Positions 27,570 to 58,014 of a stretch of DNA of 64,000 nucleotides are shown piece by piece (the first letter of the stretch is position 1; every line of letters begins with the position of its first letter). The translations under genes were made by a program, and so were the position numbers. Under the pieces are notes generated by a model. That model did not search any database and was not told the DNA's origin. It saw only the letters and a list, made by a program, of their open reading frames with translations. The DNA is from Sideroxyarcus sp. (lineage in GTDB: Bacteria > Pseudomonadota > Gammaproteobacteria > Burkholderiales > Gallionellaceae), in NCBI GenBank assembly GCA_030651895.1, contig JAUSBR010000011.1, positions 1-64,000 of the forward strand, in the 5' to 3' direction.

Positions 27570-29104
27570 ATTGGCTCCTCATAGGCGGGTAAGGTGGAGA
27601 TGCGCGGGTCGTCCAGCGCCATGCCGACGGCGTAGTGATAGATGACCTGGAAGCGGTCGTTCTGCAAGCCGAGCACTTCATGCACCGCATCGTCGAAGAA
27701 GCAGCCGATGCCGGTGCCGCGCCATCCGGCGGCTTCGGCTTCGAGCGTGACGATGTGGCCGAGCATGCCCGCCTCCCAGTGCAGGTGGCGGTAGGCAGCC
27801 GGATCGGCAGCGACGGGGGCGGCGAATTCGGCCAGCATGATGAAGGTGACGGCGCAATCGGTGGCGATGTCCTGATGGCAGGACAGAGTGCGCGCGGTCT
27901 TGCCGGCGCGCGCGGCGATGAGCTGGAACAATGGCGATTCAGTGTCGGCTGCTTCCCAGGTGAAGGTGTCGCGGAACGCGGCACGCATCGCTTCTTTCGC
28001 CGCCCCGCTGCGCGGCAGCGCATACACGCCGGGCGCGACACCTTCGACGCGGTGCACCAGCAACACCGGATGCACGCGGGCGACATGCGGCCACATCTCC
28101 CACACCGGCGAGCCACCGGGCAACAGGCTGGTCAGCAGGCGTTTGAACAGGGTTTGCGGCATCACTGATGCGCCGTCGAAGGTCTGCGCGCTGCGCCGTT
28201 TCAGGATGACTTGTGCGGCGCGGATATCTTCGTCGCGCGCGGGGATGGGGAGCGGCGACACGGATGCGCTCGGCGGTGTGCCGCGCGTGGCATGGGCGAC
28301 TTCTTCGATGACCGGCCACTGGTACAGGGGGCGCGCATCGAGCAGGCCGGGCTTGCCTGCCCAATGCTGCCAGTCTGTCGGCAAGGCGGTATCTGTCGCA
28401 TGCAAGGCGACGATCACTTCCGCCTCTTCGTTTTCCACGCCGACGAAATCCTCTGCGCGGTCGCTACCCAGCGCGTGCGCGATGTCTGCCGCGCTGCGCA
28501 ACAACAGGTGCGGCTTCCAGCCGTGCAGGACCGCTGCGTAACTCACGGCAGCGAGCACATGGCCCATGTCGAGCTGGCAATAGCGGAAAGCGCGTTCGCC
28601 GTATTTCCATGCCTCGCGCCAATGGATGGAACTGAAACCCAGCCACGCGCCCGTCGTCTGCGCGGCTCTTCCCCACGCCCGCCGTTCCAGACCGTGGTAC
28701 AGATTGTGGTAGTGATACAGACCGTCTTCCAAACCGGCCACGCTGGCGGCGATGAGCCAGGTCTCGGTGGGATGCAGGTTGCCGGACGAGGGATGCGCGC
28801 GCAGCGACCAGCGCGAACCGGCATATTCTTTCCAGGCGGTGAGTGCGACGCACAGACGCAACAGCGAGCCGAGATTGCTGCCGTTCAACGGCAGGGATGG
28901 ACGCGAGGCGGGAAGCTCGCCCCAAGTGATATCGGATACAACGATGTCGCGCGGCAACGCGCTACGCTGCGCGCCGTCCCAATCGCGGAAGGCCTTGGGC
29001 TGCGCGTCCCAGTCCAGCGTGCCGGGACCGGCGGCATAACGATCCAGCGCATGTTTGCTGCGTGTGTGATATGCCAGAACGGTAGCAGCACGGGAATCAG
29101 TCAT
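27566..29104 (-). CDS. SagB-type nitroreductase-family dehydrogenase (two nitroreductase-like halves)
   Basis: 512 residues. Both halves look like FMN nitroreductase folds: the first with GSRWSLRAHPSSGNLHPTET, the second with RRSAQTFDGASVMPQTLFKR and WEAGMLGHIVTLEAEAAGWR. SagB/ThcOx enzymes oxidise azoline rings in peptide natural products, but members in nif clusters have no known peptide partner, and none is seen here. The ATG (29104) lies at the edge of a 143-bp MITE; its Shine-Dalgarno-like AAGGA abuts the start codon directly. Probable redox role in nitrogen fixation is inference. Confidence 0.82.
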   Translation of the reverse strand: MTDSRAATVLAYHTRSKHALDRYAAGPGTLDWDAQPKAFRDWDGAQRSALPRDIVVSDITWGELPASRPSLPLNGSNLGSLLRLCVALTAWKEYAGSRWSLRAHPSSGNLHPTETWLIAASVAGLEDGLYHYHNLYHGLERRAWGRAAQTTGAWLGFSSIHWREAWKYGERAFRYCQLDMGHVLAAVSYAAVLHGWKPHLLLRSAADIAHALGSDRAEDFVGVENEEAEVIVALHATDTALPTDWQHWAGKPGLLDARPLYQWPVIEEVAHATRGTPPSASVSPLPIPARDEDIRAAQVILKRRSAQTFDGASVMPQTLFKRLLTSLLPGGSPVWEMWPHVARVHPVLLVHRVEGVAPGVYALPRSGAAKEAMRAAFRDTFTWEAADTESPLFQLIAARAGKTARTLSCHQDIATDCAVTFIMLAEFAAPVAADPAAYRHLHWEAGMLGHIVTLEAEAAGWRGTGIGCFFDDAVHEVLGLQNDRFQVIYHYAVGMALDDPRISTLPAYEEPI

Positions 29105-48237: not shown

Positions 48238-48259
48238 TGAGAATGCGTCATATTGTCGC
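48238..48259 (-). promoter_or_regulatory. RegA/ActR-like site upstream of fecI
   Basis: Minus strand GCGACAATATGACGC (48259-48245) matches the RegA-type pattern GNGRCRTTNNGNCGC at 14 of 15 positions. The 7 bases beyond it (TGAGAAT on the plus strand) are shared with the first repeat at 51464, extending the similarity to about 20 of 22 bases. Confidence 0.55.
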
Positions 48260-48455: not shown

Positions 48456-49592
48456 TTAATAGACTGAATGATCGTTGGCTTCGATGTGCGCAATGGTGAT
48501 CTTGCCGCGCATGATGCGGTAGGCCCAGCCGGTATAGGCGATCACGATGGGGGTCATAACCAGCGCCACCCAGAACATGACGCCGAGGGTGCGCTCACTG
48601 GAGACGCAATCCCATGCGGTCAGGCTGTGCGAGGGCATGGAGCTGGACGGCAGCACGAAGGGAAACATGGCGACCCCGGCGGTGAAGATCACACCCAGCA
48701 TCGCCACCGAGCTGGACACGAATGCCAGCACCCCCTTCAATTTGGCGGCGAAGAACATGCCCGCCAGTGCGCCGATGAAGCCGAGGGCGGGAATGACCCA
48801 CAGCAATGGCAGCTTGTCGAAGTTACCGAGCCACGCACCTGCCTGCATCTCCACCACCTTGCCCACCGGGCTTTGCATCGCGCCTGCTTCCGGCCCGGAG
48901 ACCAGCACATAACTTTGCATGTCCGTGACCAGCATGCCGCACAAGGCGAACAACAACACCATCAGTACACCGAAGATCAGCGAGGCGCGACTGGCGCGTT
49001 GCTGGATCACGCCTTCGGTGCGCACGATGAGGTAGTTGGCACCGTGGAAAGCGATCATCGACAGACTTAGCAGTCCGGCCAGCAGCGCGAACGGATTGAG
49101 CAGCGCCCAGAAAGTGCCGGTGTAGAAGGAACGCATGTCGTCATCGTAGTTGAACGGCACGCCCAACAGCACGTTGCCGAAAGCCACACCGAACAGCAAT
49201 GCGGGCACGGCGGAGCCGACGAACAAGCCCCAGTCCCAAGCCGTGCGCCAGCGCGGATCGGCCACTTTGCTGCGGTAGTCGAAGCCGACCGGACGGAAGA
49301 ACATCGCCCACAGCACCGCCATCAGTGCGAAGTACAAGCCGGAGAATGCGGTGGCATAGACGATGGGCCAGGCGGCGAAGATCGCACCGCCCGCGGTGAT
49401 GAACCAGACCTGGTTGCCATCCCAGTGCGGCGCCACGCTGTTGATCAGCACGCGGCGTTCGCTGTCGCTCTTGGCGACGAAGGGCAGCAAGGTGCCCATG
49501 CCCATGTCGTGCCCGTCCATCACGGCGAAGCCAACCAGCAGTACGCCGACCAACAGCCACCAGATCAGTTTGAGGGTTTCGTAATCGAGCAT
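48456..49592 (-). CDS. cydB: Cytochrome bd ubiquinol oxidase subunit II
   Basis: 378 residues, about eight to nine membrane helices. KLIWWLLVGVLLVGFAVMDG with HDMGMGTLLPF is the conserved start, and SMPSHSLTAWDCVSSERTLG is typical near the C-terminus. CydB supports the CydA heme core in the inner membrane. It starts one base after the cydA stop. Confidence 0.96.
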   Translation of the reverse strand: MLDYETLKLIWWLLVGVLLVGFAVMDGHDMGMGTLLPFVAKSDSERRVLINSVAPHWDGNQVWFITAGGAIFAAWPIVYATAFSGLYFALMAVLWAMFFRPVGFDYRSKVADPRWRTAWDWGLFVGSAVPALLFGVAFGNVLLGVPFNYDDDMRSFYTGTFWALLNPFALLAGLLSLSMIAFHGANYLIVRTEGVIQQRASRASLIFGVLMVLLFALCGMLVTDMQSYVLVSGPEAGAMQSPVGKVVEMQAGAWLGNFDKLPLLWVIPALGFIGALAGMFFAAKLKGVLAFVSSSVAMLGVIFTAGVAMFPFVLPSSSMPSHSLTAWDCVSSERTLGVMFWVALVMTPIVIAYTGWAYRIMRGKITIAHIEANDHSVY

Positions 49593-49593
49593 G

Positions 49594-51195
49594 TTAGAAC
49601 TCCTTTTTGGAAACGGGAGCAGACACTGCTCCCTTGGTCATGCCGCCACCCGATTCAAAGTGGTATCCACCGGTCCCCAGACTGGATGGGCCCAGGCGCG
49701 CGTACTTGAACATCAGGTACAGTTCGGCGATCAGCAACAGCGTGTAAAAGATGAAGAAACCGGCCAGCGACAACATCACTTCACCGGATGACAGACTGGA
49801 AACGGACAGATGCGTGGGCAGCACGCCGTGCACCGTCCACGGTTGGCGTCCCACTTCGGCCACGATCCAGCCCACTTGCGTCGCAACCCAGGGCATGGGG
49901 ATGAACCACAGCGCCCAGCGCAATAGCCAGCGTTTGTGCTCGAAGCTGTTCTTGGCCGAGGCCCAGAAAGCGATGGCGAACAACACGATGAAGGCCAGCC
50001 CCAGCGCAACCATGATGCGGAAGCTCCAGAACAGCGGCGCGACCGGCGGGATCGCATCGTCCACGGCGCGAGCCACCATCTCCGGCGTCGCCTGTGTGAC
50101 ATCCTCGGTGTACTTCTTCAGCAGCAGGCCGTAGCCCATGTCATCCTTGTGCGCGGCAAACAGATCAGTCGCTTCGGCATCGTCCTTGTTGTTGCGCAAC
50201 CGTTCGAGCGCACCCACCGCGATGGCGCCACTTTCGATACGCTGTTTGAGTGTGACCTCAAGCTGGTCGATACCGGGCAGCACTTCGTCGCTGGAACGCG
50301 TCGCGATCAACCCCAACAGATAGGGTATCTTCACCTCGGCATGGTTGGTGCGGTTGGCTTCGTCGGGTATACCGAACACGGTCAATCCCGCCGGCGCTTC
50401 CTCTGTAGTCCACATGCCTTCCATGGCGGCAAGCTTGGTCTTCTGGTGCTCGGTAACGGCATAGCCGGATTCATCGCCCAGCACGACCACCGACAATGCC
50501 GAGGCCAAACCGAAAGCGGCGGCGATACGGAAGGAGCGGCGCGCGAATTCCAGATCGCGACCCTTGAGCAGATACCAGGACGAGATGCCCAGCACGAACA
50601 CCGAGGCGGTCACGTAACCGGAGGACACGGTGTGCACGAACTTGGCTTGTGCCGCCGGGTTGAACACCAGATCCCAGAAACTGGTCATCTCCATGCGCAT
50701 GGTCACCGGATTGAATTCGGAACCCACCGGATTCTGCATCCAGCCGTTGGCGATCAGGATCAGCACCGCCGACAGGTTCGAGCCGATCGCCACCAGATAA
50801 GTGATGGTCAGGTGCCCGACCTTTGACAGGCGATCCCAGCCGAAGAAGAACAGACCGACCATGGTGGATTCCAGGAAGAAGGCCAGCAAGCCTTCGATAG
50901 CCAGCGGCGCGCCGAAGATGTCGCCGACGTAGTGCGAGTAGTACGCCCAGTTGGTGCCGAACTGGAATTCCATAGTCAGTCCGGTGGTGACGCCGAGCGC
51001 GAAGTTGATGCCGAACAGCTTGCCCCAGAACTTGGTCATGTCACGGTATATCTGCTTACCGGTCATGACATAGACCGTCTCCATGATGGCCAGCAGGAAC
51101 GTCAGGCCCAGCGTGAGCGGGACGAAGATGAAGTGGTAAAGCGCGGTGATGGCGAATTGCAATCGCGCCAGGTCTACAGCACCCGGATCAATCAT
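49594..51195 (-). CDS. cydA: Cytochrome bd ubiquinol oxidase subunit I
   Basis: 533 residues. Heme ligand His is in RLQFAITALYHFIFVPLTLG; the GRQPW motif is in VAEVGRQPWTVHGVLPTHLS. The Q-loop region (EHQKTKLAAMEGMWTTEEAP onward) is long, as in the Escherichia coli type. It reduces O2 at very low oxygen using quinol; useful for protecting nitrogenase and for micro-oxic life. It overlaps cydP by 8 bases. Confidence 0.97.
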   Translation of the reverse strand: MIDPGAVDLARLQFAITALYHFIFVPLTLGLTFLLAIMETVYVMTGKQIYRDMTKFWGKLFGINFALGVTTGLTMEFQFGTNWAYYSHYVGDIFGAPLAIEGLLAFFLESTMVGLFFFGWDRLSKVGHLTITYLVAIGSNLSAVLILIANGWMQNPVGSEFNPVTMRMEMTSFWDLVFNPAAQAKFVHTVSSGYVTASVFVLGISSWYLLKGRDLEFARRSFRIAAAFGLASALSVVVLGDESGYAVTEHQKTKLAAMEGMWTTEEAPAGLTVFGIPDEANRTNHAEVKIPYLLGLIATRSSDEVLPGIDQLEVTLKQRIESGAIAVGALERLRNNKDDAEATDLFAAHKDDMGYGLLLKKYTEDVTQATPEMVARAVDDAIPPVAPLFWSFRIMVALGLAFIVLFAIAFWASAKNSFEHKRWLLRWALWFIPMPWVATQVGWIVAEVGRQPWTVHGVLPTHLSVSSLSSGEVMLSLAGFFIFYTLLLIAELYLMFKYARLGPSSLGTGGYHFESGGGMTKGAVSAPVSKKEF

Positions 51196-51400
51196 GATTA
51201 TTCCTCCGTGAAGTTAATGAAAAATCCTGCGACCCGCCGGTCAAGCGTTCCGCCACCGTGGCGGCGACGGTCTTCTTGTCCGGCGCGTGCGAAAAGAACG
51301 CCCACCACAGCAGGTACAGCAATGCGACTTTCAGCAGCAATGCAATGAATATTTCCCAACCCAGTGTGCGTTTGATCGGAAAGCGTTTTGTGATTTGCAT
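51188..51400 (-). CDS. cydP: Cytochrome oxidase small subunit CydP-like
   Basis: 70 residues with one membrane helix (EIFIALLLKVALLYLLWWAF) followed by FSHAPDKKTVAATVAERLTG. Position just before cydA and the LLxKxxLLxLLWWxFF pattern fit the CydP family found in proteobacterial cyd operons. It would be the first gene of cydPABX. Confidence 0.82.
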   Translation of the reverse strand: MQITKRFPIKRTLGWEIFIALLLKVALLYLLWWAFFSHAPDKKTVAATVAERLTGGSQDFSLTSRRNNHD

Positions 51401-51470
51401 GGCGCGACCTTGCGGTGAGTGTTTGAATTTGACCGCGCGCAGTGTATGGATGATGGATCATCTTGAGAAT

Positions 51471-51515
51471 GCGTCACGTTGTCGCGCGACCATCTGTCGC
51501 AGGACAAAATGTCGC
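51471..51515. promoter_or_regulatory. Three tandem 15-bp repeats upstream of cydP
   Basis: GCGTCACGTTGTCGC, GCGACCATCTGTCGC and AGGACAAAATGTCGC follow each other without a gap. Each ends in TGTCGC and resembles GNGRCRTTNNGNCGC at 11-13 positions. The array lies 71 bp upstream of the cydP start. Confidence 0.65.
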
Positions 51516-51695
51516 AGTGCACGACGCATACCGGCTGCGCGCTCAGGGCCGCAAGGAAGCGGCAGGAAGATGCGGGAAAGGGATGCCAAGAATCACGGGG
51601 TATTTTGGAAAGCGGAGGCTCGGAAGTGAGAATTCGCTGACGCGCCCGTCACCCGTGGCGAAATGATTATTCTTAGCGCCACCACGGAATGGAAT

Positions 51696-51740
51696 GCGAC
51701 TTGATGTCGCGCGACCATTTGCCGCGCGGCAATTTGCCAC
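51696..51740. promoter_or_regulatory. Three tandem 15-bp repeats upstream of regA-like gene
   Basis: GCGACTTGATGTCGC, GCGACCATTTGCCGC and GCGGCAATTTGCCAC, again end to end. Each matches the RegA-type pattern at about 13 of 15 positions. The array ends 80 bp before the response regulator start. Confidence 0.65.
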
Positions 51741-51820
51741 ATTCTCGCGGCTGCCAGAATCGCTATACTAGCCCGGCGCTACCGCTTGTATGAGGTGCGC
51801 GTTCTGCAACGGGAATCGGA

Positions 51821-57995: not shown

Positions 57996-58014
57996 GTGCG
58001 ACATTTTGTCGCAC
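57996..58014. promoter_or_regulatory. Perfect RegA/ActR-type site before the ABC/NosL operon
   Basis: GTGCGACATTTTGTCGCAC is a perfect inverted repeat (8-bp arms, TTT centre), and its core GCGACATTTTGTCGC fits GNGRCRTTNNGNCGC at all positions. It lies 94 bp before the start of the leading gene. Confidence 0.65.

Follow-up and report, generated by a model that had tools for sequence, protein, structure and literature searches.

Several described operators of RegA/PrrA/ActR-type response regulators resemble the locus analyzed here. As reported in the available parts of the literature, RegA activates cydAB in R. capsulatus and has a positive influence on cydAB in B. pseudomallei. R. capsulatus ChIP sites that resemble the repeat unit described below include GTGACAATTTGTCCC at cydA, GCGACCGTTCGTCGC at ccoN, and also CGGACAAAATGTCGC (PMC5359404, available part), and at ccoN two RegA-protected stretches lie between -80 and -49 (PMC9147068, available part). 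For PrrA, the accessible text of PMC4263372 describes a proposed degenerate binding repeat whose spacer varies; ChIP-seq yielded no strong consensus. For B. japonicum RegR, every tested promoter except one is reported to contain two putative sites (PMC4064962, available part). In Acidithiobacillus ferrooxidans, RegA binds cyd and reg promoter DNA and multimerizes on DNA, according to the excerpts available from PMC5506826.

The locus described herein shares features with each of these systems. Like the RegA operators of R. capsulatus (cydAB, ccoN), it has a 15-bp recognition sequence and a bd oxidase target, with the site at R. capsulatus cydA as the direct counterpart; unlike them, as far as the available descriptions go, it has three full 15-bp units in register at the edge of a -35 region. 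A GCG-type inverted repeat and an identical HTH stretch (PDB 1umq) are shared with R. sphaeroides PrrA, whereas the varying spacer described in the accessible text for PrrA contrasts with a spacing fixed at 5 bp. The 15-bp box of B. japonicum RegR (GNGRCRTTNNGNCGC) has the same length as the unit. At. ferrooxidans is likewise an iron oxidizer with cyd among the RegA targets, but no motif could be predicted there (PMC5506826, available part). Operator and target are thus of kinds already known, and what looks new is the stacking of three units end to end beside a -35 region. Searches of the open-access literature, as far as its text was available, returned no description of RegA arrays set end to end.

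Results

Two triplets of 15-bp palindromes beside cydAB

The window, the whole stretch of 64,000 nucleotides that was analyzed, contains two arrays of three 15-bp units each, set end to end (Table 1). The unit is the palindrome GCGRC-N5-GYCGC. Relative to GCGNC-N5-GNCGC, the units carry 0, 0, and 2 mismatches in array 1 and 0, 0, and 1 in array 2. The edge of array 1 at 51471 abuts the -35 region of the predicted proximal cyd promoter, and array 2 sits between two divergent promoter-like sequences. Both triplets had been proposed in an earlier note, and direct reading of the sequence agrees with it. Triples with a total mismatch of at most 2 appeared in 0 of 20,000 dinucleotide-preserving shuffles of 51196-51820, and the real stretch has two. 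The formula given in the same note, GCG(A/G)C...TG(T/C)CGC, is a little too tidy, as unit 1 reads GCGTC, unit 3 opens with AGGAC, and unit 6 ends in CCAC. A repeat search returned the two 50-nt blocks as a repeat pair with 74% identity, 225 bp apart, and TRF picked up only part of array 2 (51708-51738). At a looser cut, one other three-unit chain was found in the window, at 28255, with a total mismatch of 4.

Table 1. Coordinates of the arrays, predicted promoter elements, single sites, and genes within the window
Feature	Position	Strand	Remarks
Single site GCGTCATATTGTCGC	48245..48259	-	CATAAT at offset 24; faces ECF sigma factor, FecR-like, and TonB heme receptor genes
cydB, cytochrome bd oxidase subunit II	48456..49592	-	TIGR00203 over cut-off
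cydA, cytochrome bd oxidase subunit I	49594..51195	-	PF01654, E 1.6e-178
Small membrane-protein-like ORF, 70 aa, cydP position	51188..51400	-	Sub-threshold Pfam hit only
-10 hexamer TACACT (4/6), predicted proximal cyd promoter	51441..51446	-	24 nt past array 1 edge
Array 1	51471..51515	-	Units GCGTCACGTTGTCGC / GCGACCATCTGTCGC / AGGACAAAATGTCGC at 51471/51486/51501, end to end
-10-like hexamer AATAAT (5/6), possible distal promoter toward cyd	51666..51671	-	24 nt past array 2 left edge
Array 2	51696..51740	+	Units GCGACTTGATGTCGC / GCGACCATTTGCCGC / GCGGCAATTTGCCAC at 51696/51711/51726, end to end
-10 hexamer TATACT (5/6), predicted promoter of the regA-like gene	51764..51769	+	23 nt past array 2 right edge
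Orphan RegA/PrrA/ActR-type response regulator, 188 aa	51821..52387	+	Receiver and Fis-type HTH
Single site GCGACATTTTGTCGC	57998..58012	-	GACAAT at offset 23; faces cluster with FtsX-, DsbD-, and NosL-domain proteins

Family models for cydA, cydB, and the regulator place the repeats between cytochrome bd genes and a RegA-type regulator gene, as previously claimed. An ORF does stand where the note had put cydP; the label is positional only, since the ORF in the right frame has just a sub-threshold Pfam hit. The regulator matches PF00072 at 11-118 and PF02954 at 137-176, both over cut-off, and is of the expected RegA size (about 180-190 aa). Its best family model by far is NF033791 (ActR_PrrA, E 8e-53), with 179 bits against an NCBIfam cut-off of 250 that is reached by 0 of the 150 genomes sampled from the order. 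The HTH stretch LNMHRRTLQR is identical in PDB entries 1umq and 3rqi, which we take to be PrrA of R. sphaeroides and a Burkholderia protein, respectively. In an alignment with 1umq, the PrrA Cys has no counterpart at the matching place in the window protein. That residue presumably corresponds to Cys 156, the only Cys of R. capsulatus RegA, through which the latter dimerizes (PMC9147068, available part).

No kinase gene lies beside the regulator gene, whose neighbors are the ORF in the cydP position and NosL genes. Because no RegB-type kinase gene adjoins it, we consider the protein an orphan RegA-type paralogue and not the RegA of a RegBA pair. The canonical RegA of the same genome, an assembly that is 73% complete, is encoded at C17:22172 and is 58% identical to the paralogue. 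In a tree made by a quick method, which can wrongly shut out long rows, the window paralogue forms a long branch outside the 32-row clade that holds the canonical RegA of the genus, and it was not placed further.

Relation of the motif to RegA

Each of the six units has one mismatch to the RegA consensus SSGNVRDNHYSNCSS (from the available part of PMC5506826) and 1-2 mismatches on the better strand to the RegR box, while the single site at 57998 has zero mismatches to both. The lack of an A at position 6 in units 2, 4, and 5 was counted against the RegA reading.

The N5 palindrome is concentrated ahead of regBA. Among 80 named RegA loci (75 with the full upstream region), 24 have it in the regB promoter region, 1.2-1.75 kb before regA, as compared to 1.1 expected from its density elsewhere; twelve other palindrome spacings gave 0-3 loci each in the same region. 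Nine of the 24 (L158, L182, L187, L189, L193, L195, L196, L199, and L201) can be assigned to Gallionellaceae from their titles, the tree, or shared sequence, and among the remaining 15 are Nitrosospira, Methylotenera, Methylovorus, Methylococcales, and Chromobacteriaceae. The locus and genus sets overlap, in that L199 (Sideroxydans sp.), L195, L201, and L189 have sequence in common with the same-genus genomes G016, G022, G013, and G046. Four relatives have a kinase gene (regB by eye) preceding the canonical RegA gene, and a single site stands before regB/canonical RegA in many loci of the genus.

Co-occurrence with RegA was counted by pattern searches in 150 genomes of the order, using an A/T-centered form of the motif that was chosen for the RegA correlation. 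The 66 genomes with RegA (best E < 1e-40) have 97 such sites against 16 for the reversed control pattern, and the 84 without it have 19 against 17 (Fisher p 1.5e-9, or 1.6e-8 with the family of the window removed). Within the genus, GCGNCAWWWTGNCGC gave 168 sites in 34 of 34 genomes against 20 for the control, summed by hand. On comparative grounds, the motif is of the RegA type and is tied to RegA. The likeness to RegA/ActR/PrrA sites that the note had seen is hence upheld by the location in the regB promoter region in several genera, the co-occurrence with RegA, the fit to published sites, and the conservation in the closest relative described below.

Three other patterns were discarded. The broad GCGNCNNNNTGNCGC proved too loose for a regulon (205 hits in the genome of the window versus 107 for the control), and GC-rich genomes dominated the hits of an order-wide tandem pattern. 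GCGRCANNNTGYCGC gave no clean separation of genomes; for example, G026, which is without a strong RegA, has 37 hits to it against 4 for the control, yet only 2 A/T-centered ones.

Distance between the motif and the -10 hexamer

Sites of the RegA motif often abut a -35 region, and a hexamer resembling TATAAT then begins 23-24 nt beyond the edge of the array. The distance was scored in 189 flanks of A/T-centered sites, which come from related genomes (loci of genus and order relatives). A hexamer matching TATAAT in at least 4 of 6 positions occurs at offset 24 in 63 of these flanks and at 23 in 25, and every other offset from 5 to 34 has at most 14. A TAnnnT scan of 160 flanks gave 51 at offset 24, 19 at 23, and at most 6 elsewhere. 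With similar flanks grouped, hexamers matching in at least 5 of 6 positions stand at 23/24 in 10 of 78 groups for the genus and 16 of 43 for the named loci, two sets that share a few genomes; offset pairs not touching 23/24 reach at most 2 and 1, respectively.

In the window, five of eight flanks have a hexamer of at least 4/6 at 23 or 24, against a background chance of 0.029, and the far flanks of array 1 and of the sites at 48245 and 57998 have none there. The cyd-side flank of array 1 holds further 4/6 hexamers at offsets 15 and 38. A scan of the region for consensus sigma-70 promoters found 0, which is weak evidence since shuffles average only 0.6.

The two single sites of the window perhaps belong to the same regulon as the arrays. 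Another single site (L133:1759, equivalent to G000:C17:20758) and its equivalents lie between canonical regBA and a divergent gene for a TonB-dependent copper receptor (TIGR01778). In several relatives both flanks of this site have a -10-like hexamer at 23/24, and a single operator may therefore serve a promoter in each direction. Extra RegA-like genes were also noticed at L317:1928-2425 (G001) and L318:3803-4201 (G021), one of them receiver-only; they adjoin TonB receptor-like genes and have FecI/FecR-like genes nearby.

Conservation and stacking of the units

The closest relative, G014, has a cydA that is 94% identical to that of the window. Before cydA it carries a tandem pair at -301/-286, the counterpart of which lies at -305/-290 in the window, and a single distal site at -549 with CATAAT at offset 24. 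An alignment of the two loci reveals that the half-sites are kept: two of the three units of array 1 are conserved and the outer third unit is lost. The sequence CCATACACTG at the proximal cyd -10 region is kept as well. Beyond its cyd sites G014 has rplS and trmD (by eye) and no RegA gene.

Sixteen cyd loci of the genus were examined, and one further partial locus was dropped. A zero-mismatch site lies within 800 bp of cyd only in the window and G014, and within 1.5 kb in nine loci, namely these two and seven with a site at -844 to -850; the other seven have none. The seven distant sites (L089, L091-L095, and L100) precede an additional gene, and none shows a -10-like hexamer at 23/24; the array design before cyd is thus confined to the window and G014. 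In some of the seven, a -10-like hexamer was seen by eye about one helical turn farther, near offset 35. Conservation among relatives, whose absence the earlier note had named as a refuting result, was found in part: two of three cyd units and the distal site persist in G014, and 14 of 16 loci have no array before cyd.

RegA genes neighbor cyd in other genera too. Sulfurimicrobium (L136) has a second RegA gene, divergent from cydA, whose product is 56% identical to the window paralogue; a one-mismatch site lies in between, with TACAAT at 24 toward the second RegA and no such hexamer toward cyd. Methylovorus (L152) has cydAB directly after regA. In L191, a second RegA gene begins 268 bp after a site that has no hexamer at 23/24.

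Stacking extends beyond cyd. A pattern of two units end to end was found in 24 of 34 genus genomes; hand-summed totals are 72 strand-hits for the pattern and 16 for its control, with every palindromic pair counted twice. Many of the A/T-rich tandem hits precede TonB receptor genes, often beside mutL (genes by eye). Triples in G005 and G016 lie between a TonB receptor gene and a cytochrome b561-like gene; in G020 a triple precedes a TonB receptor gene, and a pair about 0.5 kb off precedes the b561-like gene; most of these TonB and b561 genes were likewise named by eye. In L183 and L186, regA too is preceded by a tandem pair.

Spacing was measured at 57 anchor sites from loci not fetched via the tandem pattern. 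A second unit with at most one mismatch lies exactly 15 bp away at 8 of these, and the runner-up distance, 30 bp, accounts for 2; among the 26 anchors of the named loci, the corresponding figures are 3 and 2. When two mismatches are tolerated, 10 of the 57 anchors have a neighbor at distance 10 and 9 have one at distance 15, perhaps because a 10-bp shift reuses a half-site. As the commonest neighbor spacing at one mismatch, the 15-bp end-to-end step is a real design. It equals 1.43 turns, so neighboring units would face different sides of the helix, a matter of arithmetic and not evidence of winding. As judged by aligning and counting related sequences, stacking and the distance to the -10 hexamer are recurrent properties of these sites.

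Discussion

Our preferred reading, to which we assign a probability of about 0.85, is that the two triplets are activator-type RegA/PrrA/ActR operator arrays for cydPAB and for an autoregulated orphan RegA paralogue. Each palindrome would bind one regulator dimer, with three dimers stacked end to end across 45 bp. The promoter-proximal dimer would touch the upstream edge of a poor -35 region and recruit RNA polymerase in a class-II-like manner. Array 1 would drive cydPAB; array 2 would drive the orphan regA-like gene by positive autoregulation and probably also cyd, from a second and more distal promoter. When conditions are reducing or oxygen is low, phosphorylated RegA would in this way turn on both the bd oxidase and its own amplifier. 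We infer binding, the direction of regulation, and the signal, as well as occupancy by the orphan, by canonical RegA (C17:22172), or by both.

Who binds is the point at which a narrower form of this reading competes. The arrays may serve the canonical RegB-RegA pair only, the neighboring regA-like gene being a target or a relic and not a binder, a version to which we give somewhat less than even odds. It would explain why G014 keeps its cyd sites with rplS/trmD (by eye) and no regA-like gene beside cyd, and why tandem arrays occur in G005, G016, and G020, each with a single RegA listed at about 55-59% identity; the long branch of the paralogue outside the canonical clade in the quick tree also fits. 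However, the paralogue retains the PrrA HTH stretch and an open frame, and a second RegA near a site recurs in L136 and L191, although the L191 site departs from the 23/24 distance. Activation of cyd is itself not certain, because RegA also represses genes: in R. capsulatus it represses some operons, such as ccoNOPQ in the ChIP Table 2 (PMC5359404, available part). Three dimers next to the -35 region could accordingly block RNA polymerase, and the sites are indeed close to the promoter. We nevertheless consider repressor arrays unlikely, given that the sites end just upstream of the -35 region and do not overlap the -10, that no consensus sigma-70 promoter was found here (weak evidence at 0 versus a shuffle mean of 0.6), and that cydAB of R. 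capsulatus is activated by RegA.

The neighboring genes led us to weigh whether the palindromes serve a different regulator, such as a copper- or heme-sensing one, that by coincidence shares genes and genera with RegA. A TonB-copper receptor gene (TIGR01778 over cut-off) lies next to regBA, and genes for other TonB receptors, cytochrome b561, cytochrome c', and NosL stand beside sites. Against this are the fit to published RegA sites, the location in regB promoter regions, and the co-occurrence with RegA; in addition, R. capsulatus RegA itself binds copper (PMC9147068, available part), and we rate the idea as quite improbable. A chance origin, or a GC-rich repeat without function, has next to nothing left to it. 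Short palindromes rich in GC are frequent in DNA of this kind, as the loose pattern illustrates (205 genome hits, control 107), and TRF scores array 2 only in part, but this reading is already contradicted by the 0 of 20,000 shuffles with a triple, the half-sites and -10 conserved in G014, and the clustering of the motif before regA.

Returning to activator arrays, a bolder extension, which we hold to be doubtful, is that stacking forms a cooperative RegA platform, a short filament advancing around the helix in steps of ~150 degrees per unit, in which the unit number (1, 2, or 3) sets promoter sensitivity. Orphan RegA paralogues beside their targets would then act as local, self-amplifying readers of a global redox signal.

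RegA/PrrA binding has so far been hard to define, and these genomes provide a crisp motif together with a recurrent distance to the -10 hexamer. The natural arrays of one, two, and three units make polymerase recruitment by RegA, and the reason for its multimerization, testable. They also outline a predicted RegA regulon of bd oxidase, copper and heme uptake, and cytochromes for relatives of iron oxidizers that are mostly uncultivated.
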